Assembly: GCF_943181405.1 (NCBI RefSeq)
Contig: NZ_CALPBY010000001.1
Span: forward strand, 930,001 to 994,000
DNA: 64,000 nucleotides
From: Cellulosimicrobium sp. Marseille-Q4280
GTDB lineage: Bacteria > Actinomycetota > Actinomycetes > Actinomycetales > Cellulomonadaceae
Direction: 5' to 3'
The translations under genes and the position numbers were made by a program. This document shows positions 3,652 through 62,428 of the stretch, one piece after another. Each line of letters starts with the position of its first letter. Position 1 is the first letter of the stretch. The notes beneath the pieces are model-generated. The model saw only the letters and a list, made by a program, of their open reading frames with translations, was not told the DNA's origin and did no database searches.

Positions 3652-3725
3652 GTGCTCGCGGGCGGCGCCCGTGGGTGCGCCTCCGGACCGGCCGGCAGGT
3701 CGTCCGGGACGTGCTCGGAGGCGTC

Positions 3726-13900: not shown

Positions 13901-16896
13901 CGCTGCGCAACGACACCGACCCCGACGGCGACCAGGTCGCCCTCGTCCCGTCCGCCGTCGAGGACGAGCACGACCTGGGCGCCGAGGTCGTCGCCGACCG
14001 CATCGTCATCACGTCCCCGCCGGACGACGGGGCGTACACGTTCTACTACGGCATCCAGGACACCTACGGGGCCCGTGCGACCGGCGCGATCACCGTGAAC
14101 GTGGCCGCCGACGCCCCGCTGCTGCCCCCCGTCGCGCGCGACGACGCGGTCCAGGTCGAGGACATCCTCGGCGAGACCGAGGTCAGCATCCCCGTGCTGG
14201 CCAACGACGAGGACCCCGACGGGGCCGCGACGGAGCTCGAGGTCTCGACCGACGCGCAGACCGCGACGGTGAGCGAGGACGGCGACCTCGTCGTGACGCT
14301 CACCGAGCAGCGTCAGGTGCTCACCTACACGGTGACCGACGTCGACGGGCTCACCGCGAGGGCGTTCGTCAGGGTCCCCGGCCTGACCGACCAGGTCCCG
14401 ACGCTGCGCCCGGGCACGTCCCTCGAGGTCGTCGCCGGACAGTCGCTCGACATCGACATCACCGAGCACGTCCTGGTGGTCGAGGGCCGCACGCCGCGCC
14501 TGACGACGGAGGAGACGGTCAAGGCCACGGAGGGCTCTCGCGTGGTCACGTCGGTCACGCAGATCACCTACACGCCGAGCCCGGAGTACCACGGGCCGGC
14601 GTCGGTCACCTTCGAGGTCACCGACGGCTCCGGGCCTGACGACCCCGAGGGCAACGTCGCGCTCCTCACGCTCCCGATCACGGTCCTGCCGCCGGAGAAC
14701 CTGCCGCCGGAGCTGCGCGACGCGACCCTCGAGGTCGCTGCGGGCGAGGAGGCGTCCGTCGACCTCGCGCGGTTCGCGACCGACCCCGACGGCGACGCCC
14801 TGTCGTTCAAGGCGTCGGCGCCGGGTCAGGGGATCACCGTCTCGGTGGAGGGCTCGACGCTGCTCGCCCAGGCGACGCCCGAGGTGTCGAAGGGCACCGT
14901 CGTCGAGGTCCCGGTCACGGTCTCCGACGAGAACAACCCGCCCGTGGCGACGCAGGCCCGTCTCACCGTGGTGGCGTCCACGCGGCCCCTGACCCGCGCG
15001 AACGACGACGCGGTCCCCGACGCCCACCAGGGCAAGGAGACCGTGGTCCCCGTGCTCGACAACGACTCGAACCCGTTCCCCGACACCCCGCTCACGCTCC
15101 TCAACGCGGTGGTCGAGACCGGCCAGGGCTCGGTGTCGCTCGCGGGCGACCAGGTGGCCGTCACCCCGCGCGAGGACTTCGTCGGCGTGATGGTCGTGCG
15201 CTACCGCGTGCAGGACGCGACGCAGGACCCCGACCGCGAGGTCGAGGGCCGGATCCAGCTCACCGTGCTCGGCAAGCCCGAGGCACCCCCCACGCCGCAG
15301 GTCGAGGAGGTCCGCTCGAAGACGGTCGTGCTGTCCTGGGACCCGCCGAACAACAACGGCGCCGAGATCACCGGCTACACCGTGCGGTCCCAGAACGGGT
15401 ACGAGAAGGCGTGCGGCACCACGACCTGCACCCTGGACGGGCTGACGAACGACGTCGAGTACACGTTCACCGTGTTCGCGACCAACGACGTCGGCGACGA
15501 GTCCCTCACCGCCGCGCGGAAGAACGCGACCTACACCGACCGGTCCGCGATCGAGTGCGTCAACCTGCGCATCTCCCCGGCCCCCGCCGGCGGCGCGACC
15601 GACAAGACGTGCCTGACCGAGACCACCACCACCTGGGAGGGCCTGACCAACGGCCAGGCCTACACCGTCCAGGTCCAGGCCGAGAACCGCGCACCCGACC
15701 CGTCCGAGTGGGGCGAGACCTCCGCGTCCGAGACCCCCGCGGGCAAGCCCGCTGCGCCCGCGGCGCCGACCGCGCGGCGCACGTCCATCGGCGCCACGTC
15801 GCAGATGGAGGTCTCCTGGACGGCGCCCGACCCGAACGGTGCGGCGATCTCGCAGTACTCGGTCGACGTGCTCCAGGGCGGTTCCGTCGTGCGGACGGTG
15901 ACCGCGGGCGGCGGTGCGACGAGCACGACCGTGGGTCTGCCCGCCGACACCACCGGGTACACGTTCCGTGTCCGGGCGCACAACAAGGCCACCGACAAGT
16001 TCGGTGACGCCGAGAGCTCCCCCGCGTCCAACGCGGTCCGCGCGTTCGCCGCGCCCGGCGCCGTCTCGGGCCTCAGCGCACGCGCCACGGGGTCGGACGG
16101 GCAGGTCGAGCTCTCCTTCGGCGCCGCGACCGGCAGCGGCGTGCGCGCCGACGAGATCCGGTACCAGTACAACGCCGGCGGCGGCTGGGCCGCCCTCGCC
16201 GCGAACAGGGTCGTCGGCGGCCTCACCGACGGCCGCGAGGCGACGATCCAGGTCCGCGCGGTCGCCGGCGTCGACGGCGCCGACGAGCCGGGACCTGCCT
16301 CGAGCGCGACGGCGACCCCCTACGGACCGATCCCCGCGCCGACGCTGACGGTGAGCGGCGGAGACCGCGCCATCACCTACAGCTGGTCGACGTCCGACAA
16401 CGGTCGCCCGTACACCACGTCGGTCACCGGTGCCGTGCGCTCGAACAGCGCGTCCGGGTCCGGGACGCTGAGCGTCGGCTACTCGGAGACCCGGGAGATC
16501 TGCGTGACCGTCACCCCGACCGAGGGTGCGGCGAACCAGACCTGCCGGAGCGCGACGTCCGACAAGCGGCCCGAGCCCGTCCTCCAGGCGTACAAGGGAT
16601 CGAACTACCCGTCCGTCACGTGCACCCACTCGTCGTGCGCGATCGTCGACCTGTCGATCTCCGGTGCGGAGCCCAACACGCCGTTCACGGTGTCGTGCTG
16701 GACGAGCCACAACGGCGACCACATGTTCGAGGGCACGCGCACGTACTCCGTCGACCGCAACAACCGCCAGCTGCGGACCGACGCGAACGGGAACTTCCCG
16801 CGGAGCGGGATGTGGTGCCACTACGGGCAGCCGGGCGCGCAGGTCTGGATCCGCACGAACGCGTTCGGCGACTCCCGCACCGTGACCTGGAGCTGA
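10921..16896 (+). CDS. Giant surface protein: cadherin/Ig-like repeats plus fibronectin type III (copy 2)
   Basis: A 1991-residue paralog of the protein at 3726, colinear through most of its length. It has the N-terminal anchor (about residues 14-33, ending WFYEGEATA), the LNDSGVWVTK head, Asp-rich NDxDPDGD repeats to about residue 1450, then FN3 domains and a Cys-bearing C-terminal domain from about 1880. GTG 10921 has GGGGGAG upstream. Compared with copy 1, the junction of the first and second FN3 units is about 28 residues shorter, with NATYTDRS reached directly after VGDESLTAARK. The last third is far more diverged than the first two thirds. Its first ~170 codons prefer G-ending synonymous codons, unlike the rest. 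The function is unknown. Confidence 0.85.
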   Translation: MGFLQRLNENRRAVASVTTVSVFSTALVGLAWFYEGEATADVELNDSGVWVTKTSSGQLGRFNYESQAIDGVLVAGSASFDVQQDEGRVLLDDEGTSTASPVEVAHLTLDGQVRLPAGAQVASGGATTAVLDGEEGLLWVLPFDGATAFDPEETEPVAEVEGDGALTVSGDGTVFVAVPSTGTLWTVETSDKGVVQGAPGTANLPVGPGADLAVTAVGDEPVVLDRSASTLVLPGGKTVLLDDGEGARLQQPSAGSANVVVATSSGLVTQPLDGGDALTRAAQGSPSAPVQLDGCTYGAWGSTAQVVRDCAGTDRDLDKRLEGVDLQARLEYRVNRHVIVLNDLAAGTLWMAADEYEKVDDWDVQLPEEAEGEESDAELTNPEQVDQFIADRSQPNKPPQPKDDVFGARPGRTTILPVLANDVDPDGDVMTATVVGDGPDGVTVEQILGGAALQAVVPEDAEGTLGFRYTVSDGRGGTAEAGVSLKISPWDENEAPEQTGDPVLKVAQGGTATIKVLPFFKDPDGDDLYLASADATVAGDEVRSRPDGTVELRDGGGSTGRKIVTLAVADGLGGIAEGKLLVDVVAGQQPPIAVNDHVVVPAEQSVTVEPLRNDSDPNSDALRLTAVSEHDRALITPNLDAGTFAFAADEPGSYDLTYQVTDGPGVTTGLVRVDVLPPDAASGPPIVVADTALLPTGGTTLVDVLANDTDPAGGVLVVQSVTVPEDAGVSVAVLAHQMLRITEIRRLDGPVTVEYTVSNGTQSSTGQVRVVAVPAPTKLQPPNAVADEVMVHTGDVVTIPVLKNDTHPDGLELFLQTELEQDVDPALGEAFVSEDTLRFKAGAEAGTAHAIYRVRDANGQEDSAQVTIRIRDDEDNEPPQPRDIEARVLSGAAVRVDVPLLGIDPDGDSVQVTGVASAPSKGTARVVDGSLEYSASKSSTGLDTFTYSVLDARGATATGTVRVGISRPAETNQSPVAVDDEITVRPDRTVSVAALRNDTDPDGDQVALVPSAVEDEHDLGAEVVADRIVITSPPDDGAYTFYYGIQDTYGARATGAITVNVAADAPLLPPVARDDAVQVEDILGETEVSIPVLANDEDPDGAATELEVSTDAQTATVSEDGDLVVTLTEQRQVLTYTVTDVDGLTARAFVRVPGLTDQVPTLRPGTSLEVVAGQSLDIDITEHVLVVEGRTPRLTTEETVKATEGSRVVTSVTQITYTPSPEYHGPASVTFEVTDGSGPDDPEGNVALLTLPITVLPPENLPPELRDATLEVAAGEEASVDLARFATDPDGDALSFKASAPGQGITVSVEGSTLLAQATPEVSKGTVVEVPVTVSDENNPPVATQARLTVVASTRPLTRANDDAVPDAHQGKETVVPVLDNDSNPFPDTPLTLLNAVVETGQGSVSLAGDQVAVTPREDFVGVMVVRYRVQDATQDPDREVEGRIQLTVLGKPEAPPTPQVEEVRSKTVVLSWDPPNNNGAEITGYTVRSQNGYEKACGTTTCTLDGLTNDVEYTFTVFATNDVGDESLTAARKNATYTDRSAIECVNLRISPAPAGGATDKTCLTETTTTWEGLTNGQAYTVQVQAENRAPDPSEWGETSASETPAGKPAAPAAPTARRTSIGATSQMEVSWTAPDPNGAAISQYSVDVLQGGSVVRTVTAGGGATSTTVGLPADTTGYTFRVRAHNKATDKFGDAESSPASNAVRAFAAPGAVSGLSARATGSDGQVELSFGAATGSGVRADEIRYQYNAGGGWAALAANRVVGGLTDGREATIQVRAVAGVDGADEPGPASSATATPYGPIPAPTLTVSGGDRAITYSWSTSDNGRPYTTSVTGAVRSNSASGSGTLSVGYSETREICVTVTPTEGAANQTCRSATSDKRPEPVLQAYKGSNYPSVTCTHSSCAIVDLSISGAEPNTPFTVSCWTSHNGDHMFEGTRTYSVDRNNRQLRTDANGNFPRSGMWCHYGQPGAQVWIRTNAFGDSRTVTWS

Positions 16897-45359: not shown

Positions 45360-46577
45360 GTGCAGGCGACGACGACAGACCACGCGATCACCGTCGCCGG
45401 GTTGGGCAAGACCTACCGGCTCGGCGCCTCCGGCGAGCGCTCGTCCACCGCGGCGGCCGCCGCGATCCAGTGGGTCCGGTCGACGGGGAAGCAGCGGTTC
45501 ACGCTCTTCGAAGCCCTCGACGACGTGTCCTTCGAGGTCCCGCACGGCGAGGCGCTCGGGATCGTCGGGCGCAACGGGGCCGGCAAGTCGACGCTGCTCA
45601 AGATCCTCACCCGGGTGACGGCACCGTCGCGCGGGCGGATCGAGCTCAACGGTCGCGTGGGTTCTCTGCTCGAGGTCGGGACGGGATTCCATCCCGAGCT
45701 GACGGGCAAGGAGAACATCTACCTCAACGGCGCCATCCTCGGCATGACGCGCAAGGAGATCCAGAAGCGCTACGACGAGATCGTCGAGTTCTCCGGCATC
45801 GAGAAGTTCCTCGCGACACCCGTCAAGCGGTACTCGTCGGGCATGTACGTGCGGCTCGCGTTCTCCGTCGCGGCGCACCTCGACACCGAGATCCTCGCGA
45901 TCGACGAGGTCCTCGCGGTCGGCGACGCGGAGTTCCAGCGACGCTCGATCCAGAAGATGCGCGAGGCCGCCCAGGGCGGTCGCACCGTGCTCTACGTGAG
46001 CCACCAGCTCCAGACCGTCCAGGCGCTGTGCTCGTCCGCGATCCTGCTCGACCGGGGGACCCTCACGTACTCGGGCACGGTCGAGGGCACGCTTCAGGCG
46101 TACCGGGACAGCTTCGAGAGCTTCGCCGCGGCCCAGTCCGATCCGAAGAAGCGGCCGGGCAACGGCAAGGTCCGTCTGTCCTCGGTCCGCATGGAGGACG
46201 AGTTCGTCAAGTCCTCGCAGGACATCGTCGTCGACTTCGAGGCGCCGGCGAGCAAGAAGCTCATCGGGACCTACTTCGTCTCGATGCACATCAACAACGA
46301 CCAGGGCACCGTCATCGCGCAGTGCGACTCACGGCTCGTCGGGAAGTGGTTCGACCCCGAGGAGGCCCAGCGCGGTCGGCTCGTGGTGCGGGACCTGTGG
46401 CTCAAGCCCGGCCAGTACACCGTGGACGTGTACGCGTGCCAGGCGGGCGTGCTCGACGCCTGGGAGGGCGCGTGGCGCTTCGAGGTGCTGCCCGACCTCC
46501 CGTACCCGGAGTTCACCGAGACGTCGAGCACCGAGAAGGGCATGGTCTTCGTGAACTTCGAGTACGAGGGGGTCTGA
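45360..46577 (+). CDS. ABC transporter ATPase with Wzt-type C-terminal domain
   Basis: A 405-residue cytoplasmic ATPase of a polysaccharide exporter (Wzt/TagH/RfbB type). Walker A GRNGAGKSTLLKIL is near residue 75. The signature YSSGMYVRLAFSVAAHL and Walker B ILAIDEVLAVGD follow, then a switch His in VLYVSHQLQTV. Residues 260-405 form an extra beta-rich domain (VVDFEAPASKKLIGTYFVSM) like the Wzt C-terminal domain that recognises the modified glycan end. That implies the chain is capped or modified before export. The GTG 45360 start is leaderless. It is the first gene of a long tightly packed operon running to 53328. Confidence 0.93.
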   Translation: MQATTTDHAITVAGLGKTYRLGASGERSSTAAAAAIQWVRSTGKQRFTLFEALDDVSFEVPHGEALGIVGRNGAGKSTLLKILTRVTAPSRGRIELNGRVGSLLEVGTGFHPELTGKENIYLNGAILGMTRKEIQKRYDEIVEFSGIEKFLATPVKRYSSGMYVRLAFSVAAHLDTEILAIDEVLAVGDAEFQRRSIQKMREAAQGGRTVLYVSHQLQTVQALCSSAILLDRGTLTYSGTVEGTLQAYRDSFESFAAAQSDPKKRPGNGKVRLSSVRMEDEFVKSSQDIVVDFEAPASKKLIGTYFVSMHINNDQGTVIAQCDSRLVGKWFDPEEAQRGRLVVRDLWLKPGQYTVDVYACQAGVLDAWEGAWRFEVLPDLPYPEFTETSSTEKGMVFVNFEYEGV

Positions 46578-46578
46578 C

Positions 46579-47409
46579 GTGGAGCACACCGTCCAGCGCA
46601 CCGTCATCACGCCCCCGGGGCGTCTCAACCTGCCGTCGTGGCGCGAGCTGTGGGCGGCGCGCGAGGTCGCCGTCCGCCTCGCGCTGCGCGACGTCATCGT
46701 GCGGTACCGGCAGACGATCTTCGGCGTCACCTGGGTGATCATCCAGCCGCTCGTCAGCGCGGGCATCTTCACGATCGTGTTCGGCGAGATCGCCGGCCTG
46801 TCGACCGGAGCGATCCCGACCTTCCTGTTCACGCTCGCGGGGATGCTCGCCTGGAACCTCTTCAACGGGTCGCTCGGGCGCGCCGCCGGATCCATGGTGG
46901 GCAACCAGTCGCTCGTGCAGAAGGTGTTCTTCCCTCGTCTGCTCGTACCCATCTCGAGCCTCGCGTCGGTCGTGCTCGACTTCCTCGTCGCGCTCGTCCT
47001 CGCCGTGGTGCTGCTCTTCGTCTACGGCATCAACCCCGGATGGGCCGTGCTGCTGCTCCCCGTCTGGGTGCTCCTCATCCTCATGATCGGGACGGGCATC
47101 GGCCTCGCGGCAGCGGCCTACATGGTGAAGTACCGCGACGTCGGCTACGTCCTGCCGTGGCTCGTCCAGATCCTGCTGTACGCGAGCCCCGTCGCCTACG
47201 CGCTCTCGTCGGTCCCTGAGGACCTGCGGTGGCTGTTCGACATCAACCCGGTCACGTGGTTCCTCGAGACCTTCCGCTGGTCGCTGCTCGGCACCGACCT
47301 CCCGCCCACGTGGCAGGTCGTCGCCCTCTTCGTCGCGGCACCGATGATCCTCCTCGCCGGGACTCTCGTCTTCCAGAAGAACGAGCGCGAGTTCGCGGAC
47401 TTCATCTGA
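46579..47409 (+). CDS. ABC-2-type polysaccharide export permease
   Basis: A 276-residue membrane protein of the Wzm/TagG/RfbA type with six helices. ALRDVIVRYRQTIFGVTWVIIQPL is the typical amphipathic entry helix plus TM1. NLFNGSLGRAAGSMVGNQSLVQKVFFPR gives the inner loop that contacts the ATPase. IGLAAAAYMVKYRDVGYVLPWLVQ precedes the last helices. It starts with GTG at 46579, one base after the ATPase stop, and overlaps the next gene by one base. With the upstream ATPase it forms the exporter that moves the lipid-linked glycan across the membrane. Confidence 0.93.
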   Translation: MEHTVQRTVITPPGRLNLPSWRELWAAREVAVRLALRDVIVRYRQTIFGVTWVIIQPLVSAGIFTIVFGEIAGLSTGAIPTFLFTLAGMLAWNLFNGSLGRAAGSMVGNQSLVQKVFFPRLLVPISSLASVVLDFLVALVLAVVLLFVYGINPGWAVLLLPVWVLLILMIGTGIGLAAAAYMVKYRDVGYVLPWLVQILLYASPVAYALSSVPEDLRWLFDINPVTWFLETFRWSLLGTDLPPTWQVVALFVAAPMILLAGTLVFQKNEREFADFI

Positions 47410-48251
47410 TGCGGCTCACGGCGTACGTGCTCCTCGCGGATCCGAGCTTCCTCGGCGCGAGCCTGCGCGCGTACTACCACCTGGTCGACCGCGTCGTGCT
47501 GTCCTACGACGTGACGGGGACCTCGTGGACCGGCACCCCGCTGCCGGTCGACGAGTGCCTCGCCGTCGTCGACGCGCTCGACTCGGAGCGCAAGTGCGTG
47601 CGCGCGCCCGGGAGCTTCGCACGACTCGACGAGCACCCGCTGGACAACGACACCTTCCAGCGTCAGACCGCGCTCGACGCCGCGTCCGACGGGGCCGACT
47701 GGGTGCTCCAGCTCGACACGGACGAGGTGATGCTCGACCCGTCGGCGTTCCGCACGTCGATCGACGCGGCGGAGAGGTCCGGCGCGTCCGGCCTGCACTT
47801 CCCGTCCCGGTGGTTGTACTCGCGCGTCGCACCCGGTCGCTACCTCGAGGCGAGCACGCGGCTCGGCCGTCCGTCCGCGTCCTTCCCGGGACCGCTCGCC
47901 GTGCGCGCCGGGACGAGGCTCGCCCACGCTCGGCAGGCCGACGTGCCGCTGTACCGCGTCGACCTGCGTCCGTGGAACACGGACCCGAGCCACCGGCACG
48001 ACGAGATCGTCCACGAGGTCGTCGGACCCGACAGCGCGGTCCTGCACTTCTCGTGGGTCCGCACGCCGGAGGCGATGCGCAAGAAGTTCGGCTGGTCGGG
48101 ACACACCGCCCACTACTCACGGCCGGACGTCTACGAGTCGTGGGTCGAGCGATCCCGGCACCCGCGCCGCACCGTGCTGACCTCGCCGTGGCGCCGGCGC
48201 GACTGGTTCCGCCTCGTGTCCGTCCCCGAACCGCCGGGAGGCGAACCGTGA
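47409..48251 (+). CDS. Glycosyltransferase family 2-like protein
   Basis: A 280-residue protein with a GT-A-like core. The order RLTAYVLLADPSFLGASLRAYY..VDRVVLSYD, then QRQTALDAASDGADWVLQLDTDEVML, gives a DxD-type metal/nucleotide site. A C-terminal helical part contains HFSWVRTPEAMRKKFGWSGH, which resembles the glycan-branching group of DUF23/GT2 enzymes. The ATG at 47409 overlaps the permease stop (TGATG), so translation is coupled. The donor and acceptor sugars are unknown. Confidence 0.8.
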   Translation: MRLTAYVLLADPSFLGASLRAYYHLVDRVVLSYDVTGTSWTGTPLPVDECLAVVDALDSERKCVRAPGSFARLDEHPLDNDTFQRQTALDAASDGADWVLQLDTDEVMLDPSAFRTSIDAAERSGASGLHFPSRWLYSRVAPGRYLEASTRLGRPSASFPGPLAVRAGTRLAHARQADVPLYRVDLRPWNTDPSHRHDEIVHEVVGPDSAVLHFSWVRTPEAMRKKFGWSGHTAHYSRPDVYESWVERSRHPRRTVLTSPWRRRDWFRLVSVPEPPGGEP

Positions 48252-53336: not shown

Positions 53337-54263
53337 TCAGGTCGGGCGGCCGCGGCGCAGCGCCCGGCGGACGAGACGTGGTGTCCAGGTCGCCAGCCGG
53401 ATGGCCGCGACCCAGCTCATGGCCGCCGCATACCCGGCCTTGCCGCGCGGCGTCGTGGGCCACGGCTTGGTCCAGATGCTCAACCAGACGGTCGTCCCCG
53501 CGCGCAGCTCACGCACCGAGGCCCGTGCCGCGTCCCGCGGCGGTCCCGACTCCGTGAGGTCCGCCATGCCCTTCGCGATGCGGACCGACTTGGTGGTGAG
53601 CTCCGACCAGGTCGGCCGCGACGGGTGGTCGACGACGGCGCCGGCGGCGTAGACGAGGCGGCGACCGCCCGCTCGGAGCCGATGTCCGAAGTCGTCGTCG
53701 CCGCCCGACTGGAGCGCGGCGTCGAACCCGCCGACGCCCCGTACCGCGTCGGCCGTCGCGACGAGGTTCGCCGTCGCGGCGAAGTGGAACGTCGTCACGA
53801 AGCGCTCCTGGTCGAACCCGTGCACCGACTCGTACAGCTCCGGTCCGGTGACGGGTTCGGGGCCGTCCCGGAACACGAGCCGGATCTGGCCTCCCACGGC
53901 GTCCGGTGCGTCGAGGCCCCGGAGCGTCGCGACCGCCGTGCTCAGCCAGTCGCGCCACGGCCGGCAGTCGGCGTCGGTGAACGCGAGCACCTCGCCGGTC
54001 GCAACCTCGAGCCCGGCGTTGCGGGCCGCGTAGGAACCCCTCCGCGTCTCGCCGACCATGACGAACCGGTCGTCGTCGGGGAGCGCCGGCCGCAGGTCGG
54101 TGGTCGACGCGTTGTCGACCACGACGACATCGAACCGGTCGGCCGGGTAGTCCTGCTCCGCGATCGCGTCGAGACAGAGCCTCAGGCGCTCGACGTCGTT
54201 GTAGACCGGGATGATGACCGTGACTCTCGGCAGGTCCTCAACCCGACGGGGAGCGTCCTCCAT
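53337..54263 (-). CDS. GT2-family glycosyltransferase
   Basis: A 308-residue GT-A enzyme. VTVIIPVYNDVERLRLCLDAI and DVVVVDNASTTDLRPAL begin the fold. EVLAFTDADCRPWRDWL is the DxD site. GGDDDFGHRLRAGGRRL is the base region. A C-terminal amphipathic/hydrophobic part (KAGYAAAMSWVAAIRLATW) follows. The ATG at 54263 follows GGAGAG by 4 nt. It is encoded opposite to its neighbours and divergent from the multidomain fusion gene at 54435. Confidence 0.9.
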   Translation of the reverse strand: MEDAPRRVEDLPRVTVIIPVYNDVERLRLCLDAIAEQDYPADRFDVVVVDNASTTDLRPALPDDDRFVMVGETRRGSYAARNAGLEVATGEVLAFTDADCRPWRDWLSTAVATLRGLDAPDAVGGQIRLVFRDGPEPVTGPELYESVHGFDQERFVTTFHFAATANLVATADAVRGVGGFDAALQSGGDDDFGHRLRAGGRRLVYAAGAVVDHPSRPTWSELTTKSVRIAKGMADLTESGPPRDAARASVRELRAGTTVWLSIWTKPWPTTPRGKAGYAAAMSWVAAIRLATWTPRLVRRALRRGRPT

Positions 54264-54378
54264 GCGTCTCTCCTCGTCCGGGGATCGCGGGTCGTCCACG
54301 ACACGCCGAGCATAGCCGTGGCTCCCCCACGATCCCCCGGCGCCCGGCGCCGGCCCGTGCCACACCCGGATGTCGCCC

Positions 54379-54434: not shown

Positions 54435-56762
54435 GTGGATCTCGCGACTGTCGTGCCACCCGGTGCACGTGTCCTCGAGATCGGGGCCACGGACGGGGTG
54501 CTCGCGCGTGCCCTCGAACGGTCGGGGCTCGCCACGCACTATCTCGGACTGGTCCCGCCGCACCTGCTCGACGCGGTCCGGTCCGACGTCGGCGACGACC
54601 TCGCGCACCGCGTCCATCCCCTGACGACGCCCGACCAGGCGATCCGCAACAGCACCGACGTGCTCGTCCTCCGCGGGCCCTGGACCCGTGTCCTGTGGGC
54701 CCACCGCGACCTCCACCACGTGCGGCTGCTCGCCGTCGAGGCGGGCTCGGGCCCGCTCGACCTCGAGCGACGCGCCGCAGCGCTCTCGGCGCGGACGATC
54801 GGCCGGCTCCGACCACGGGGTCGAGCCACGTGCGAGGGCGTCCGTCTCGACCTCTACGAGGTGCCTCAGCACGGCGAGCCCGCACCGCGGACGTACTTCT
54901 CCCCCGTGTGGGGGGCGGCCGGCCTGGCGGCGCGCCTCAAGGAGGCAGGACTGCGCTACGCGGTGCTGAGATGGTTCGAGTCCCTTCCCGAGATCGCTCC
55001 CGGCGAGGACCTGGACGTCCTCGTGGCCGACGACGACGCGGACGCGTTCCGAGCGCTCGTCGAGTCGGAGCCCGGGACCTGCCCCGTCGACCTGTACAGC
55101 GCATCCGGCCTGGACCACTCCGACTACCTGGGTGCTGCCTACTACCCGCCGCAGCTGGCGACGGGGCTCCTCGACCGTGCGGTGGTGCATCCCAGCGGGT
55201 TCCTCACGCCGGCGCCGGAGGACCACCTGCGCTCGCTCGCGTACCACGCGGTGTACCACAAGGGGCCGACGTCGGGGTTCCCGTCCGGTCTGCTGGGACC
55301 GGCGGACCAGGAGCCCGAGCACGACTACCCGACCGCCCTCGCACGGCTGACCACGCTCCAGGGCGCACCGCCGCTGCGGACGCTCGAGGACGTCGACGCC
55401 TATCTGGTGGCAGTGGGGTGGCGCCCACCGCTCGACGCCCTGCGTCGCTTCGCGCCGTCGAACCGGTGGATCAGGGCGGCGCTCGGGGAGACCCAGGAGA
55501 TGCAGGCCGAGGAGTCGGAGCTCACGGTCTTCCTCGTCCGGGAACGGACGCTCGCCACGCTCACGCTCCCCGAGGTGCTGGACGAGCTCGAGCACGTCGG
55601 GTTCGACGTCGTGGCGACGGTCGAGCTGGACGACGCGGCGCGTTCCCGCACCGCTCAGAGCCTTCGCGGAGGCAACTGGGGCAAGGGTCCGTTCCCCGTC
55701 AGCGGCGGAGACCCGAGAGTCGTCGTCGCGGCGCTGCACCACGACCCCGAGGAACCGCACCCGGACCTCCTGTCGCGCTACCCGCACCTGACGAACGCGG
55801 AGGTCGTCGTCGCGAAGCGGAGGGTGCGGGACGCGGTCGAGGCTGCCACCCACGCCGGTGCCGCGTTCAACCCGATCCACTCCTCCGACAACGAGCAGGA
55901 GGCCTGGGAGTACCTCGAGATCGCCGCCCCCGGGTCCGTGGCGGCGATCCGCGCCGACGTCGGCGAGCGGCGCGGCGAGCTGCGTGGCGAGCTCCCGGTG
56001 CTGCGCACGCTGAGCCGTGGACGGCGCGCCCGCGTCGAGGTCGTCGAGGGCCCGGACGGTCCTGTCGTCCGCAAGACGTTCGCGCGGGGGTTCCTCCGTT
56101 TCAAGGACCGTGAGCTCTGGGCGATGCGCGAGCTGTCCGGACTCGTGGACGCCGTGCCGCCGGTCCTCGACTCGGGGGCGAACTGGTTCACGTGCCCGTT
56201 CTTCGACGACGTCCTCGGACCGCTCGACACTTCCCGTGGACCACGGCTCGTTCCGCTCGGGGTCCTGCGGGAGATGGTCGCGGTCCTGCGTCGGTTCCAC
56301 GAGCTCGGCTACGACCTCGTGGACGCCAAGCCTCAGAACTTCGTCGTCGACCGCAGGCTCGGCCTCCGGGTCGTCGACTTCGAGTTCCTGCACCGGTACG
56401 CGGGCGACCCACCTCCGTTCGCTCGGAGCGCGAACTTCGTGGGAGTACCACCGGAGCTCGCCGTCGACCGCCCCGTGGGCGACATGTCCTACGAGAAGCG
56501 GTGGCTGCCCTACACCGGCATGCCGCTGGACGTCCTCCTGGACGGGTCGGACCGCGAGCAGCGGTCACACCGCCTGCGCTACCGCACCGTCCGGGTCGGC
56601 ACCGCGCCCCGCACCCGCGTGTCCGCGCTGGCGCGGCGCGCCTACCGGTCGGCCCGCGGGACGAAGGGCGCTGTTCTCTGGCGCTACACACTGTGGGCCA
56701 GGCGTCGCGCACGGTCGGCCGGACCGGTCGACCCGCCCTCCCGGGGCGCGGGACGCGCATGA
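54435..56762 (+). CDS. Four-part fusion: methyltransferase-like, nucleotidyltransferase-like, NDK-like and kinase-like domains
   Basis: A 775-residue protein of unusual build. Residues 1-145 look like a SAM-methyltransferase Rossmann domain (ARVLEIGATDGVLARALE). Residues 152-340 resemble a minimal nucleotidyltransferase, with RYAVLRWFESLP then GEDLDVLVADDDADAF. Residues 360-505 resemble nucleoside-diphosphate kinase: LTVFLVRERTLATL, and NPIHSSDNEQEAWEYL where the phosphoryl-accepting His of NDK stands (about residue 482). Residues 515-690 are kinase-like (VVRKTFARGF; LRRFHELGYDLVDAKPQNFVV; LRVVDFEFLHRY). The stop overlaps the next ATG, which encodes another kinase-fold protein. I do not recognise a characterised homolog. 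It probably primes or modifies the glycan or its lipid carrier (inference). Confidence 0.7.
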   Translation: MDLATVVPPGARVLEIGATDGVLARALERSGLATHYLGLVPPHLLDAVRSDVGDDLAHRVHPLTTPDQAIRNSTDVLVLRGPWTRVLWAHRDLHHVRLLAVEAGSGPLDLERRAAALSARTIGRLRPRGRATCEGVRLDLYEVPQHGEPAPRTYFSPVWGAAGLAARLKEAGLRYAVLRWFESLPEIAPGEDLDVLVADDDADAFRALVESEPGTCPVDLYSASGLDHSDYLGAAYYPPQLATGLLDRAVVHPSGFLTPAPEDHLRSLAYHAVYHKGPTSGFPSGLLGPADQEPEHDYPTALARLTTLQGAPPLRTLEDVDAYLVAVGWRPPLDALRRFAPSNRWIRAALGETQEMQAEESELTVFLVRERTLATLTLPEVLDELEHVGFDVVATVELDDAARSRTAQSLRGGNWGKGPFPVSGGDPRVVVAALHHDPEEPHPDLLSRYPHLTNAEVVVAKRRVRDAVEAATHAGAAFNPIHSSDNEQEAWEYLEIAAPGSVAAIRADVGERRGELRGELPVLRTLSRGRRARVEVVEGPDGPVVRKTFARGFLRFKDRELWAMRELSGLVDAVPPVLDSGANWFTCPFFDDVLGPLDTSRGPRLVPLGVLREMVAVLRRFHELGYDLVDAKPQNFVVDRRLGLRVVDFEFLHRYAGDPPPFARSANFVGVPPELAVDRPVGDMSYEKRWLPYTGMPLDVLLDGSDREQRSHRLRYRTVRVGTAPRTRVSALARRAYRSARGTKGAVLWRYTLWARRRARSAGPVDPPSRGAGRA

Positions 56763-57916
56763 CCCTGCGAGCGGTCCGCGCGGCGAACGGCTCCGCGGTG
56801 CTGGCAGGGGCGAAGGTCGCCGTCGCCCGTTCCTGGTCCGTCGCCCGTGGGGTGCGCCGGCTCGCCGCGGCCAAGGCCACCTCCCGCCGGGCGGTGCTGC
56901 CGTACGCGCCGCTGCTCCGACGCGGTGTCTACGTGGCGGACGACGGTCGCACCTGGAGACGCTGGCGGCAGCCGGTGCCCGAGCACCTGCGCCGGACCCG
57001 ACCGCCCCAGCACGGTCCGAGGCCAGCGCCGGGCGTGACGAGGATGGTCGCCCGTCTGGCGAGGACGGTCCGCGTCGCGGCACCGCCGGTCTGGCTGGTC
57101 GGCCGCGGCGGGCCTACCGGCTACTCGATCGCCACGTCGACGCACGACGGCGGGCTCGTCCTGCTCGACCCCTCGGGGGGCCGCGTGGCGCGGGTCGGCG
57201 GCGGCACCGGCGTCGGCAGCGACTACGTCGCCCTCCGCAGCCGCTACGGGGCGCACGTCCCCATGCCGGCGTTCGAGGTCCACGACGGCATGGTCGTCGA
57301 GGAGTTCGTCGACGGGGTGCACTTCCTCGAGCTGTCGGCCACGGAGCAGGTCGCCGCGGTCAAGGTGCTGCTCGGCAGCTACACCGCGCTCGTGCGCGCC
57401 GAGGGCGGCGGTTCCAGCGCGGACCGCCTGGGCGACGCCCTCGCGCTCGTCGAGCACTCGGCCCTCCCGCCGGCCATGCGCGCCTACGTCGACCCGCCGG
57501 CGCTGCGGCACGCGGCCGCGTCGTGGCCCCTCGTCCCGTCGGGCACCGATGCGAACGTCAAGAACCTGATCGTCGTCTCCCGGCGGACACCCGTCCCGAT
57601 CGACCTGGTCACCGTCCGCGACGACCCGTTCTTCTACTTCCCGCTGGGGATCGTCGGGAACGCGCGAGGTCCCGTCCTGCAGACCTACCTGGACGGAGGG
57701 CTCGACGGCGAGATGCACCGCCTCTTCCAGGCGGCCGGGTCCCGGTTCGACGCGAGCGCCTCGGGGCGCCTCTCGCTCCTCGCGGCCCGGGTGCTGGTCG
57801 CGACGCTCCACCAGGCGCGCCGCGAGGGGTTCGGCGCAGGTTCGGCGCGCGTCGGGGCCGTCCTCGAGGAGCGATGGGGCGAGCTCCGCTCCACGGCACC
57901 GGCGGACTGGTACTGA
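56759..57916 (+). CDS. Kinase-fold (phosphotransferase-like) protein of the polysaccharide locus
   Basis: A 385-residue protein. Its first 100 residues are basic and Pro-rich. Residues 105-385 resemble an atypical aminoglycoside-phosphotransferase/kinase fold: GLVLLDPSGGRVARVGGGTGVGSDY (nucleotide-binding-loop-like), MVVEEFVDGVHFLEL (hinge), then VPSGTDANVKNLIVV and PIDLVTVRDDPFFYFP where the catalytic loop and metal Asp should lie. The canonical HGD is replaced by SGTDAN, so activity is uncertain. The ATG at 56759 overlaps the upstream stop (ATGA), which suggests the two kinase-like proteins act together, perhaps as a glycan kinase pair. Confidence 0.65.
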   Translation: MTLRAVRAANGSAVLAGAKVAVARSWSVARGVRRLAAAKATSRRAVLPYAPLLRRGVYVADDGRTWRRWRQPVPEHLRRTRPPQHGPRPAPGVTRMVARLARTVRVAAPPVWLVGRGGPTGYSIATSTHDGGLVLLDPSGGRVARVGGGTGVGSDYVALRSRYGAHVPMPAFEVHDGMVVEEFVDGVHFLELSATEQVAAVKVLLGSYTALVRAEGGGSSADRLGDALALVEHSALPPAMRAYVDPPALRHAAASWPLVPSGTDANVKNLIVVSRRTPVPIDLVTVRDDPFFYFPLGIVGNARGPVLQTYLDGGLDGEMHRLFQAAGSRFDASASGRLSLLAARVLVATLHQARREGFGAGSARVGAVLEERWGELRSTAPADWY

Positions 57917-57931: not shown

Positions 57932-58873
57932 TCAGGAGCCTCCGTCGGCGGGTCGCACGGGGCGCAGCCGGGTGACGGGTGCGGTCGGGGCGAACCGCAG
58001 CGCCCACGTCCCGTCCGCGAGCGCCGCACCGACCCGCCGCTCCCGCAGCGCGGTCCGGGCCGCGCGACCGGCGCTCCACCACGCGAACCGGTCGTTCGCA
58101 CGCAGGCGGTCGTCATACGCCCCGACCAGGTCGGCGCGCCCCTCGTCGAGGGCGGCGGCGCGGTGCACGCGCAGGATCGTGCGGATCGCGGTGGCGAGGT
58201 CGCGGTACGAGCGCGTGGTGTTGGACGGGTGGTAGCGGTAGTCGACGAGTGCCTCGTCGACGAACGCGAACGGACCGTGCGCCGCGGCGTCGAGCACGAG
58301 GTCGAGGTCCTCTCCCTGGCGGTACGCGGGGTCGAACCCGCCGATCGCGTCGAACGTCTCGCGCCGGATCACGAGGTTCGGCAGCATGACCCCCGGCCCG
58401 CGGATCACGTCGCGGCGGTCCGCCGCCGCACGCTGGTCCGCCTCGACGACGACGTCGCCGGCGGCGTCGATCGTCCGCATCCCGCAGTAGCTGACGACGA
58501 CGTCGGGGCGGGGCGCCATGACCTCGACGTGGCGGCGCAGCCGGTCGGGGTGCCAGCGGTCGTCGTCGTCGAGGAACGCGACGAGCTCGCCCGTCGTCTC
58601 GAGGACCCCCCGGTTGCGCGCGGCAGAGACACCCGACGGCTGCGTGCGCACGACCCGGGCGACCGGGAACGCGTCGGTGATCGTCCGCAGCGCGTCAGGA
58701 TCGGGCGACCCGTCGTCCACGACCACGAGCTCGGCGGGGGGCAGTGTCTGGGCGACGACCGAAGCGAGGGCCTCGGCGAGGAACGGCCCGCCTCGGTTGG
58801 TGGCGACGACGACGGACACCCGCGGAGGGTCGTCGGCGTCCTCCGCCGGGCTGCGCCCTTCGTCCACGCTCAT
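57932..58873 (-). CDS. GT2-family glycosyltransferase
   Basis: A 313-residue GT-A enzyme. RVSVVVATNRGGPFLAEALASV and LVVVDDGSPDPDALRTI start the fold. ELVAFLDDDDRWHPDRL is the DxD site. GGFDPAYRQGEDLDLVLDAA is the acceptor/base region. A C-terminal helical tail ends the protein. The ATG at 58873 was chosen because it precedes the first conserved strand by about 20 residues. It is transcribed opposite to the surrounding genes and is divergent from the GT4-GT2 fusion. Confidence 0.9.
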   Translation of the reverse strand: MSVDEGRSPAEDADDPPRVSVVVATNRGGPFLAEALASVVAQTLPPAELVVVDDGSPDPDALRTITDAFPVARVVRTQPSGVSAARNRGVLETTGELVAFLDDDDRWHPDRLRRHVEVMAPRPDVVVSYCGMRTIDAAGDVVVEADQRAAADRRDVIRGPGVMLPNLVIRRETFDAIGGFDPAYRQGEDLDLVLDAAAHGPFAFVDEALVDYRYHPSNTTRSYRDLATAIRTILRVHRAAALDEGRADLVGAYDDRLRANDRFAWWSAGRAARTALRERRVGAALADGTWALRFAPTAPVTRLRPVRPADGGS

Positions 58874-58970: not shown

Positions 58971-61019
58971 ATGAGGATCCTCCGCGTCTCGCACAGCGCC
59001 GTGGTCGACGCGTGGCGCGAGCGCGAGCGGGAGCTGCGCGCCCTCGGCGTCGACGTCCGGCTCCTGTCGGCGCGTGCGTGGGACGAGGGGGGCGCCTCGG
59101 TCCGTCTGGTCCCCCGCCCGGGTGAGCCGGTGCGCGGGGTGCGCACGTTCGGCTCGCACCCGGCGCTCTTCGTCTACGACCCGCGCCCGCTGTGGCGCGC
59201 GCTCGGCGAGGACTGGGACGTCCTCGACCTGCACGAGGAGCCGTTCGCCCTCGCCACGGCCGAGATCCTCGCCCTGGCGCGCCTGCGAGGGCTCCTCACC
59301 CGCCGCTCCGCACCGCCCTACGTCCTCTACTCGGCCCAGAACCTGCGCAAGCGGTACCCGTGGCCGTTCCGATGGTTCGAGGCACGCGCCCTGCGTGGTG
59401 CGGCCGGGGTGTCGGTGTGCAACGAGGAGGCCGCCCGCATCGTGCGGGACAAGGGGGCGCGCGGCAGGGTCGCGGTGATCCCGCTCGGGGTCGACCTCGA
59501 GGCCTTCGCCCCGCCCCGTGGTCGCGCCGGTGGGCCGGCCGGCCCACCGGCAGCGCACCACGCCGCAGGCGCCGGCGTTGCGCGCCGCCTGTGCGTCGGG
59601 TACGCCGGGCGCCTGGCGCCGCACAAGGGCGTGGACACGCTGCTCGACGCGGTCTCCGGCGACGCGGGGACGGAGCTCGTGCTCGCGGGCGACGGCCCGC
59701 AGCGCGCCGCGCTCGAGACCGCCGCACGTCCCCTCGCCGACCGGGTCCGGTTCCTCGGCCCGCTCGACGGCGGCGACCTCGCCGCGTTCTACCGCTCGCT
59801 CGACGTGCTCGCCGTGCCCTCTCGCGAGACGCCGGGCTGGGTCGAGCAGTTCGGGCGCGTCGCGGTCGAGGCGATGGCGTGCGGCGTGCCCGTCGTCGCG
59901 ACGAGCACCGGCGCCCTGCCCGACGTCGTCGGCGGCGCGGGGCTCCTCGTCCCGCCCGACGACCCGGCAGCCCTGCGCGCCGCGATCGCTCGGGTGCGCG
60001 ACGAGGTGGGGCTCGCGGACGAGCTGCGCGCCGCGGGGTCGCGACGGGCCGCGGAGTGCTCGTGGACGGAGGTCGCGGCGCAGTACCTCGAGCTGTACGG
60101 CACGGCCGCGGGCGGTCGCGGTGCGCGCCCGTCGCCCGCGCACGGTGCGTCCCCGGCCCTCGACCTGCCCGCGACGCCCCCTGAGGTCGTCGTCGTCGCC
60201 TACGGCGCGCCGGCGATGGTGCGCGACGCGCTCGCGCCCCTGGCCGGGAAGTACCCGATCACGGTCGTCGACAACTCGTCGCTGCCCGCGATCCGCGAGA
60301 TCACCGAGCTCGCCGGCGGCCGGTACCTCGACCCGGGGCGCAACGGAGGCTTCGCGGCAGGCGTGAACCACGCCCTCGCCCACCGCCAGGTCCCCGGCGC
60401 CGACGTGCTCCTCCTCAACCCGGACGCCGTCGTGACCCCCGAGGACGTCGAGACGCTGCACCGCGCCCTGCACGCGCGGCCCGGCGTCGCGAGCGTCGGC
60501 CCGGAGCAGGTCGACGACGACGGCACGCCGGCGCGCGTCGTCTGGCCGTTCCCGTCCCCTGCGGCGACGTGGATCGAGGCCGTGGGTCTCGCGCGGTTGC
60601 GGCGGACACCTCCGGGGCGTTCCTTCGTCATCGGCTCGGTGCTCCTGCTGAACGCCCGCGCCGTCGAGGACGTGGGCGGGTTCGACGAGCGCTTCTTCCT
60701 CTACGCCGAGGAGACCGACTGGGCCTACCGCGCCGTACGGCGGGGCTGGCGGCACGTCGAGGTGCCTGACGCCAGGGCGCTGCACCTCGGCGGCGCGACG
60801 AGCAGCGACCCGGCACGCCGCGACACCCACTTCCACGCGTCCCAGGAGCGCTACCTGCGCAAGCACCACGGCGCGCTCGGGTGGGAGGCGGCCCGCGCCG
60901 GTGCCGTCCTGGGCGCTGCGGGCCGCACGCTCGTCCTGCGCGGGCAGGACCGGGAGAGCGCTCGACGGCGACTGCGGCTGTACGTGCACGGACCGGTCCG
61001 TGCGGAGGCCGCACTGTGA
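58971..61019 (+). CDS. Fused GT4-GT2 bifunctional glycosyltransferase
   Basis: A 682-residue protein joining two complete glycosyltransferases. Residues 1-385 form a GT-B GT4 enzyme: RILRVSHSAVVDAWRERE, AQNLRKRYPWPFRWFE, CVGYAGRLAPHKGVDTLLDA, and PSRETPGWVEQFGRVAVEAMACG (E-x7-E region). A Gly/Ala/Pro linker spans about 385-405. Residues 405-682 form a rhamnosyltransferase-like GT2: ITVVDNSSLPAIREI, NGGFAAGVNHALA, VLLLNPDAVVTPEDV, VGGFDERFFLYAEETDWAYRA. Two sugar transfers are probably made by one polypeptide. It starts a tightly overlapping operon with the polymerase and two more GT4 genes. Confidence 0.92.
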   Translation: MRILRVSHSAVVDAWRERERELRALGVDVRLLSARAWDEGGASVRLVPRPGEPVRGVRTFGSHPALFVYDPRPLWRALGEDWDVLDLHEEPFALATAEILALARLRGLLTRRSAPPYVLYSAQNLRKRYPWPFRWFEARALRGAAGVSVCNEEAARIVRDKGARGRVAVIPLGVDLEAFAPPRGRAGGPAGPPAAHHAAGAGVARRLCVGYAGRLAPHKGVDTLLDAVSGDAGTELVLAGDGPQRAALETAARPLADRVRFLGPLDGGDLAAFYRSLDVLAVPSRETPGWVEQFGRVAVEAMACGVPVVATSTGALPDVVGGAGLLVPPDDPAALRAAIARVRDEVGLADELRAAGSRRAAECSWTEVAAQYLELYGTAAGGRGARPSPAHGASPALDLPATPPEVVVVAYGAPAMVRDALAPLAGKYPITVVDNSSLPAIREITELAGGRYLDPGRNGGFAAGVNHALAHRQVPGADVLLLNPDAVVTPEDVETLHRALHARPGVASVGPEQVDDDGTPARVVWPFPSPAATWIEAVGLARLRRTPPGRSFVIGSVLLLNARAVEDVGGFDERFFLYAEETDWAYRAVRRGWRHVEVPDARALHLGGATSSDPARRDTHFHASQERYLRKHHGALGWEAARAGAVLGAAGRTLVLRGQDRESARRRLRLYVHGPVRAEAAL

Positions 61020-62428
61020 TGCCGCCCAGCCTGCGTCTGCCGTGGCGCCGGCCGGTCCTCTACCGGGCACCGGACGTGCCGGGCGCGCTCCGGGCCCGGG
61101 TGGGCGGCGCCGTCGCCTGGGTCGCCGGTGGTGCGGTGGTCGTGGCGCTGCTCGGCGTCCTGGGGTTCGTGGTCCCCGAGTTCCAGACGGCGGCGTTCGG
61201 CGCGGCCCTGCTCGTCCTGGTCGTCGGTCTCACGGCGTACGAGCCGGTCGCCCTGCCCATCCTCGCGATGCCGGCCCTGGTCGTCGTGCAGCGTGTCGGG
61301 GGCGGGGGCGTCGACCTCTCGCTCAGCGACTTCGCACTGTTCGGTGCGTTCTGGTTCGCGTTGTTCTTCTCGCCGCGCCCCTTCTCGAGACCCATGCGGG
61401 CGATGCTGTGGCTGTCTCTCGTCTACCAGGTGGCGACGCTGTTCACGGTGATCGTCAACCCGTTCAGCGCGAACGTCGTGGAGTGGTTCCACGCGTGGCT
61501 GTCCGTGGCCGGCGCGCTCGTGCTCGGCTGGGCGGTGGGCCGCTCGGGCCGCGCCCGGCTCGGACTCACGCTCTTCCTCGTCCCCTGCCTGGCCATCGCC
61601 GCGCAGACCTGCATCGTCGCGCTGCAGCAGCTCGCGGCCGGGAACACGGGACCCGTGTACGTCGACTTCCCGATCGCGATGCACAAGAACTTCATCGGCT
61701 GCGTCCTCGCGTTCGCCGCGCTGACGGCGTACGCGCGCCCCTGGTGGGTCGGCTGGCCCCGCTGGTTCGCGCTCGCCTCCTTCTGGCTGTGCTCCGTCGG
61801 CGTGCTCGCCGCCCAGGCACGCCAGGCGCTCATCGGCCTCGCGATCGGCATCATGCTCATCACGCTGCGCGGGGACCCCGACCGCAAGCGGTCCAAGGTC
61901 ATCCTCCTCGCCGCGATCCCGGCGATCTACTTCGTCGTGCTCGCGGTCCAGGAGCAGCTGTCGTCCGACAACGAGTTCAACTCCGCCAACCAGCGGCTCA
62001 CCTGGTACGCCGACTCGATCGACGTGTGGCAGCGCAGCCCCTGGGTCGGGATGGGCCTGCGGTGGTGGACTGCGGGCGTCACCGAGTTCGTCTTCCAGCC
62101 GCCCAACGTGGAGCTCGAGGTGCTCACCTCGGCGGGGATCGTCGGGCTGGTCGGGTTCCTCGTGCTCTTCGTCGGCGGCATGGTCGTGCTCTGGCGCATC
62201 AACCCGCGGTTCGGGACGCTCGCCTTCTCCATGCTCATGATGCGCTTCGTCCAGGGGCAGTTCGACCTGTTCTGGGTGTCGGTCCAGGTGACCGTGCCCT
62301 TCGTGATCGTCGGGGTGTGCCTCGGCGCCGAGTCCTATGCCGAGTCCCGGCAGCGCGCCCGGGACGCGACCGGCCGCGACCTACCGCTCGAGGAGCTGCG
62401 ATCCGTGCAGGAGATGACCGCCCGATGA
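61019..62428 (+). CDS. O-antigen ligase/polymerase-like membrane protein
   Basis: A 469-residue protein with about 12 hydrophobic helices. The Wzy_C/O-antigen ligase signature is seen in the large loop and following helix: NSANQRLTWYADSIDVWQRSPWVGMGLRWW (R..W..g....P..G.G). The earlier QARQALIGLAIGIM helix carries the conserved Arg. It would polymerise or ligate glycan units on the outer face of the membrane. The start is ATG 61019, overlapping the upstream stop by one base; the adjacent GTG 61016 is an alternative. Having both an ABC exporter and a Wzy/WaaL-like enzyme in one locus hints at two glycans or a ligation step. Confidence 0.85.
   Translation: MPPSLRLPWRRPVLYRAPDVPGALRARVGGAVAWVAGGAVVVALLGVLGFVVPEFQTAAFGAALLVLVVGLTAYEPVALPILAMPALVVVQRVGGGGVDLSLSDFALFGAFWFALFFSPRPFSRPMRAMLWLSLVYQVATLFTVIVNPFSANVVEWFHAWLSVAGALVLGWAVGRSGRARLGLTLFLVPCLAIAAQTCIVALQQLAAGNTGPVYVDFPIAMHKNFIGCVLAFAALTAYARPWWVGWPRWFALASFWLCSVGVLAAQARQALIGLAIGIMLITLRGDPDRKRSKVILLAAIPAIYFVVLAVQEQLSSDNEFNSANQRLTWYADSIDVWQRSPWVGMGLRWWTAGVTEFVFQPPNVELEVLTSAGIVGLVGFLVLFVGGMVVLWRINPRFGTLAFSMLMMRFVQGQFDLFWVSVQVTVPFVIVGVCLGAESYAESRQRARDATGRDLPLEELRSVQEMTAR

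Follow-up and report, generated by a model that had tools for sequence, protein, structure and literature searches.

What role does a 775-residue protein with several enzyme-like domains play in a bacterial surface-polysaccharide locus? The question is raised by gene P0001 (54435..56762, + strand) of Cellulosimicrobium sp. Marseille-Q4280, located in a 64,000-nucleotide stretch (contig NZ_CALPBY010000001.1, positions 930,001 to 994,000) hereafter referred to as the window. P0001 begins with a GTG codon and is read as a single open frame, predicted to contain a methyltransferase-like (MT) domain, a nucleotidyltransferase-like (NT) domain, a nucleoside diphosphate kinase (NDK)-like (ND) domain, and a kinase (KI) domain, followed by a basic C-terminal tail. 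Across genomes, NT, ND, and KI occur together, either fused in one chain or split and permuted; in the genus of the window, one version or the other accompanies a single type of Wzt, the ATPase of an ATP-binding cassette (ABC) exporter.

A sequence-only reading of the window had described the 775-residue frame, an ATGA overlap with the next gene, P0002, and four motifs, all of which are found as described: VLEIGATDG, GEDLDVLV (with D192 and D194), NPIHSSDN (with His482), and LVDAKPQN...VVDFEF (with D630, N635, and D648). Neither P0001 nor P0002 matches any Pfam family at an E-value of 10. P0001 is more than a chance frame, because full-length orthologs with 55–78% identity occur in six other genomes (99 searched; a shorter or partial one is present in G074), a profile scan of genome contigs identifies 24 related loci in named genomes, and dN/dS of four P0001 segments is 0.17–0.35 against the 78% identical ortholog and 0.26–0.58 against a 58% identical one. 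The gene is real and conserved. A further match, in G052, is marginal (E 9.3e-4 over 76 residues). The same contig scan with P0001 as a single sequence returned zero relatives, and a search of a plasmid collection returned zero matches.

The 24 loci span Actinobacteria, Gemmatimonadota, Planctomycetes, Alphaproteobacteria, and one Roseibacillus metagenome-assembled genome. The family is rare, since the ND profile matched only 3 of 394 genomes of the class; the NT profile matched 5 of 396 genomes of the order. P0001 itself lacks a Pfam match, so domain assignments were tested on 26 family sequences (alignment A2). Omitted from this alignment were L025, L026, L027, and L035, which are the same records as L017, L020, L018, and L021, respectively, as well as L029, which nearly duplicates L030, and L047, cut by a contig end. 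The nearly identical L029/L030 stretch is labelled both Aeromicrobium choanae (a metagenome-assembled genome) and Actinotalea caeni, and one of the two names may stem from erroneous binning. Genes in the relatives were called with a codon-usage script, not taken from annotation, and few were called initially in L032, L042, and L044. The alignment includes MT-NT-ND-KI proteins, three-domain NT-ND-KI proteins that lack MT, and MT-NT-ND proteins without a kinase (L045, L046). The family is patchy and wide, with at least five layouts, and is not a one-off fusion.

KI (res. 515–720; 55977..56594, + strand) is firmly predicted to be a kinase. It presents the residues expected of a protein-kinase-like fold, namely a VAIK-type lysine, K547 (kept in 23 of the 24 sequences with the domain), a helix-C glutamate, E560 (24), the catalytic aspartate D630 (24), the asparagine N635 (23), and a DFG-type aspartate, D648 (23), as well as E650. 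Its profile detects 913 distinct kinase sequences in the PDB at an E-value of 0.01 or better (best 1.1e-9), and relatives match the Pfam families Pkinase (11/26), Kdo (4/26), and APH (1/26, E 1.7e-8). KI also aligns with WbdD of E. coli HS over 113 columns (E 1.7e-5, a score reached by 0 of 100 shuffles; 5.2e-5 and 0 of 200 in a second run). This match identifies a kinase rather than WbdD specifically, because of the many PDB kinases that KI also matches. KI is related to protein-kinase-like folds in general, so the 'lipid-carrier-modifying' part of the earlier description derives from context and does not come from the sequence.

ND (res. 356–512; 55500..55970, + strand) is assigned as NDK-like with moderate confidence. 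Nine residues (R369, R411, W415, K461, R465, N479, H482, S483, and D485) are kept in 26 of 26 relatives. The codon of His482 lies at 55878..55880 (+ strand), and hhalign places this residue on the phospho-histidine of NDK, His118; R369, T453, R465, N479, and H482 align with NDK K12, T94, R105, N115, and H118, and the NDK residues Arg88 and Glu129 lack a conserved counterpart. A profile–profile comparison with 26 true NDKs gives an E-value of 0.002 over 120 columns, and none of 300 and none of 200 column shuffles reach the score. Among the 20 PDB sequences listed for the ND profile at E-values up to 10, 17 carry the name nucleoside diphosphate kinase (best E 0.037). Pfam NDK (PF00334) is detected in two of the 26 relatives (best E 0.0017) and not in P0001 itself, with the curated family cut-off not reached; a Pfam NDK search of the window genome flagged its ordinary NDK only. 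Elsewhere, a weak NDK-family match (40.9 bits) at G135:C1:818520-818936, distinct from the ordinary NDK that G135 also has, lies in a 452-residue open frame that is possibly another NDK fusion.

NT (res. 151–352; 54885..55490, + strand) is likewise nucleotidyltransferase-like with moderate confidence. D192, D194, and D219 are kept in 25 of 26 relatives, and the DxD motif is in register with members of NTP_transf_5 (PF14907), a family to which we assume the nucleotidyltransferase of pseudomycoidin biosynthesis belongs. PF14907 is detected in 9/26 relatives (best E 0.012), below its curated cut-off in every member scanned, and P0001 itself is unmatched. Comparison with PF14907 members by hhalign gives an E-value of 0.0075; in two runs of 200 shuffles each, the score was reached twice in one run and once in the other. 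Seven PDB entries matched the NT profile, with no nucleotidyltransferase among them.

The N-terminal domain, MT (res. 1–150; 54435..54884, + strand), has a methyltransferase-like fold by weak to moderate evidence: Methyltransf_23 is detected in five of 26 relatives (best E 0.0053), and hhalign aligns the domain with true methyltransferases (E 0.0046, 0 of 200 column shuffles). Class I S-adenosylmethionine (SAM)-dependent methyltransferases share a glycine-rich motif I and an acidic residue after strand 2. Motif I is eroded across the relatives (EIGATDG, LGARDG, IEIGVQCADV, VEIDPRDRSV), and strand 2 does not end in the usual acidic residue (YLGLVPP). With these two changes, MT is probably not SAM-active, and we rejected a working N-terminal methyltransferase, methyl transfer being unlikely. 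The methyltransferase-like N-terminus announced by the sequence-only reading thus holds as a fold but probably not as an activity. The order it gave for the other three parts, NTase-like, NDK-like, and kinase-like in one protein of a surface-polysaccharide locus, is supported by the 26 relatives, nearly all of which keep the key residues.

In some genomes, the three domains are arranged differently. In G004, G010, and G016, the slot of P0001 holds a protein of 463–466 residues, without a strong Pfam match, and a separate gene of 260–263 codons. Residues 80–180 of the larger protein align with ND (E 5.8e-6, 97 columns) and residues 227–388 align with NT (E 1.8e-7, 144 columns), each with 0 of 150 shuffles reaching the score, so NT follows ND; the separate gene product aligns with KI (E 7.9e-14). 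The same two-gene set occupies the same kind of locus in G057, which belongs to another genus of the same family, where the NT profile picks up the ND-NT protein in a standard HMMER search at an E-value of 4.2e-13. The permuted protein is 30–31% identical to the fused form, and counterparts of Lys461, Arg465, and His482 are kept, the histidine in all six split proteins aligned. A PDB search with the permuted protein yielded nothing meaningful. Two rewirings in other lineages agree with this picture. The fused copy of Microvirga (L048) has lost the NT acidic residues, and an intact separate NT protein (E 1.5e-61) lies ~2 kb off; in the Planctomycetes L045 and L046, ND is the last domain of the protein, and a gene ~1.5 kb away encodes a fusion of a Kdo/WaaP-type kinase with a GT2 glycosyltransferase.

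The exporter in the window consists of Wzt (45360..46577, + strand; PF00005, E 1.5e-20), with a Wzt_C-type C-terminal domain (PF14524, E 5.8e-7) that scores 30.0 bits, just below the 30.4-bit cut-off, and Wzm, an ABC-2 type permease (46579..47409, + strand; PF01061, E 3.4e-21). Within the genus, 11 of 17 genomes encode a Wzt with at least 90% identity, six of which carry the fused P0001, five the permuted ND-NT protein, and none both. The remaining six genomes have neither form; three of them encode a Wzt with 63–68% identity and three give only distant ABC matches. Fisher's test of this co-occurrence gives p = 8e-5, a value that overstates the link, given the relatedness of the genomes and the 75% completeness of G001. 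At first, the occurrence of Wzt without P0001 spoke against a role in chain termination, an objection that fell when the remaining five genomes proved to carry the split form. We rejected the idea that Wzt co-varies with the fused form only, as genomes that have P0001 and genomes that lack it share a Wzt of at least 90% identity. Selected neighbors were scanned at 20 further loci, and they include a flippase or ABC exporter in 10, with GT2 in seven more.

P0002 (56759..57916, + strand; ATG start, 385 residues) follows P0001 with the ATGA overlap and had been read as a second kinase-like protein forming a pair with it; neither claim was confirmed. It carries SGTDAN, and D264, N269, and D282 fit the spacing of a kinase catalytic loop from which the histidine is lost. 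Against a kinase profile, only a 26-residue catalytic stretch aligns (E 0.033; 1 of 150 shuffles equals it), and with three further kinase profiles the score is equaled by 117, 6, and 15 of 150 shuffles. We therefore reject P0002 as an established kinase, the match being confined to the catalytic stretch and shuffles often reaching the score. Relatives of P0002 were found in G004, G014, and G016 (59 genomes searched), all without P0001 and with the split version; a TGA interrupts the copy in G014 (L024 9428-10132, − strand), which matches as two separate segments. Zero relatives were found in the six other genomes with full-length P0001 or in G074, and the two genes co-occur only in the window genome among the 17 of the genus, so a conserved P0001–P0002 pair is rejected. 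Two genes past P0001, a methyltransferase–APH kinase protein is present instead in G006, G007, G009, G012, G026, L030, and L033; it is missing at an E-value of 0.01 from the window genome, G005, G004, G014, and G016. P0001 of G005 is followed by neither protein, and a search downstream of it for P0002 remnants found none convincing. Overall, the initial observation is partly confirmed and its first interpretation partly supported.

What might such a set do? Our preferred reading, tentative and held at slightly less than an even chance, is that NT, ND, and KI work as a phosphotransfer module of three steps on a lipid-linked surface glycan before export, where it likely places a chain-end mark for Wzt. 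For the substrate, the order of steps, the product, and the link with Wzt, we infer the following. KI would phosphorylate a sugar hydroxyl using ATP. ND may carry out a second phosphoryl transfer onto the phosphate made by KI or feed the NT step; its role is the least certain of all. NT would add a nucleotide-derived group, either a nucleoside monophosphate or a sugar phosphate, giving a substituted phosphate that, in loci with Wzm and Wzt, would most likely serve as the chain-end mark checked by the C-terminal domain of Wzt. The MT-like domain would probably serve in recognition or docking without being catalytic, and the basic tail (20 Lys/Arg versus 5 Asp/Glu in the last 85 residues) would hold the enzyme at the membrane. 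The chain end is the most likely site because of the strict link with a Wzt bearing a C-terminal binding domain and the analogy with WbdD. A more specific version, which we consider rather unlikely as a whole, has a relay of kinase, NDK-fold phosphotransferase, and nucleotidyltransferase cap the end of an ABC-exported glycan with a nucleotidyl- or sugar-phosphate group as an export permit, rewired by fission, permutation, and gene replacement with its activities kept together. To our knowledge, ND would be the first NDK-fold enzyme to act on a polysaccharide. The joint phosphate-handling pathway foreseen by the sequence-only reading fits the finding that NT, ND, and KI stay together even when unfused, with the chemistry itself coming from inference.

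Several observations weigh against the preferred reading. The 17 genomes share ancestry, and inheritance of a single intact cluster could explain the co-occurrence. Three-domain forms adjoin Wzx-type flippases in L035, L037, L038, L040, and L048 (and other ABC exporters in four loci), which weakens a pure terminator role because no Wzt is there to read the chain end, and three of the 20 further loci (L032, L036, and L043) have no exporter or glycosyltransferase among the neighbors selectively scanned. The NDK and NTase assignments are each, taken individually, weak to moderate. The permuted protein lacks N479, has Asn for D485 and Glu for D192, and shows no direct match to profiles of true NDKs or NTP_transf_5 (E 0.36 and 0.4). 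The search for the separate kinase, finally, covered only G004, G010, G016, and G057, and found it in all four. The same flippase neighbors favor a different function, in which the module decorates repeat units with side-chain phospho-substituents, generating serotype variation unrelated to termination or Wzt recognition. The slot is indeed variable, with accessory genes that differ among strains (the methyltransferase–kinase protein or P0002), and P0001 leaves no room, with ~85 residues past position 690, for a coiled-coil ruler of the WbdD type. We nevertheless regard decoration as somewhat unlikely: two distantly related layouts alternate in the slot, yet one of them is present with that Wzt in 11 of 11 genus genomes, and such constant presence would be unusual for an optional decoration.

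Two further explanations change the substrate or the number of working domains. Sugars are typically activated by a kinase together with a nucleotidylyltransferase, and the module could make the activated precursor of a special sugar, with the kinase giving a sugar phosphate, NT a nucleotide sugar, and ND recycling the nucleotide by regenerating nucleoside triphosphate. However, sugar-nucleotide pyrophosphorylases have another fold, NT resembles NTP_transf_5, and the basic tail suggests a membrane-bound substrate, which makes this route distinctly improbable. It is also improbable that ND and MT are dead scaffold domains in what is only a glycan kinase with an accessory NTase. The eroded MT loop, the unmatched NDK residues Arg88 and Glu129, and the replacement of K12 by R369 would all agree with such decay, but His482, Ser483, Lys461, and Arg465 persist in 26 of 26 relatives, and the histidine, lysine, and arginine persist in the aligned split proteins as well.

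P0001 lies in a glycan locus that also holds GT4 glycosyltransferases, an acetyltransferase-fold protein, and a polysaccharide deacetylase. A 280-residue protein directly after Wzm (47409-48251, + strand), without a Pfam match, is 74–85% identical in the Wzt-carrying genus relatives seen. P0001 adjoins a GT2 glycosyltransferase (53337..54299, − strand), whose homolog in several relatives is encoded immediately after P0001 and in the same direction, and the variable slot is closed by another GT2 glycosyltransferase (57932..58873, − strand). In three relatives (L016 11239-13258, L018 6576-8580, and L019 6553-8566), two near-identical GT2 genes in opposite orientation lie beside the P0001 cassette, and this inverted repeat could allow flipping or exchange. 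A Wzy_C/O-antigen-ligase-like membrane protein is encoded at 61016..62428 (+ strand; PF04932, E 2.3e-14). At the other end of the window, frames of 2045 and 1991 residues (3675-9812 and 10921-16896, + strand) with similar N-termini look like paralogous giant secreted proteins.

Glycans exported by ABC transporters need an end mark that signals a finished chain to the exporter. In E. coli O9a, WbdD phosphorylates and then methylates the chain end, and the carbohydrate module of Wzt reads the mark, according to two reports (PMC3482155, PMC11231755); few such marks are known, namely methyl, methyl-phosphate, and Kdo (PMC11231755). Similarly to WbdD, P0001 has an alignable kinase, in which the spacing D630-N635-D648 equals that of WbdD D351-N356-D369 as given in PMC3482155, and a locus with Wzm and a Wzt whose C-terminal domain is of the Wzt_C type, at the score just under the cut-off. 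Unlike WbdD, P0001 has the additional NT and ND domains, and its MT domain, with an eroded SAM loop, is unmatched to the WbdD methyltransferase (E 0.27). The long coiled-coil region is also missing, judged from length: P0001 has a basic stretch of ~85 residues past position 690, whereas more than 330 residues follow the catalytic Asp369 in WbdD (708 residues; PMC3482155). P0001 is not a WbdD. The methyltransferase–APH proteins of sister strains have a layout like that of WbdD, methyltransferase then kinase (HGDLHPDN...LVDWN), with no profile match to it (E 0.12); this domain order is seen at L016:5315-6994 (− strand) and in relatives at L017-L020, L030, and L033.

Likenesses of the other parts are equally partial. 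ND aligns with NDK (PF00334) over its 120 columns with N115 and H118 in register, but it differs by R369 in place of K12, by a new invariant RGGNW..GP..SGG.P stretch, and by being embedded in a larger protein. NT shares with NTP_transf_5 a DxD-type motif, a third aspartate, and a weak profile match, but it remains below the cut-off and has a long family-specific C-terminal half with a SLAYHAVYHKG motif. The kinase-then-nucleotidyltransferase logic of KI and NT recalls the lasso peptide pseudomycoidin, on which a phospho-hexose is made by a kinase followed by a nucleotidyltransferase, the phosphate being added and then glycosylated (PMC8498205). We found no description of the NT-ND-KI combination, its permuted twin, or the Wzt partnership in the open-licence literature searched. 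In this actinobacterial genus, the module always accompanies the same type of Wzt, in either of two layouts, which makes it a candidate, open to testing, for a mark of a new kind; such a role would also assign a function to a family that spans Actinobacteria, Gemmatimonadota, Planctomycetes, and Proteobacteria and lacks a Pfam entry. Measured against these systems, the component folds and the glycan-locus setting are already known, and the new part lies in how the domains are combined, in the permuted twin, and in the strict association with one Wzt.

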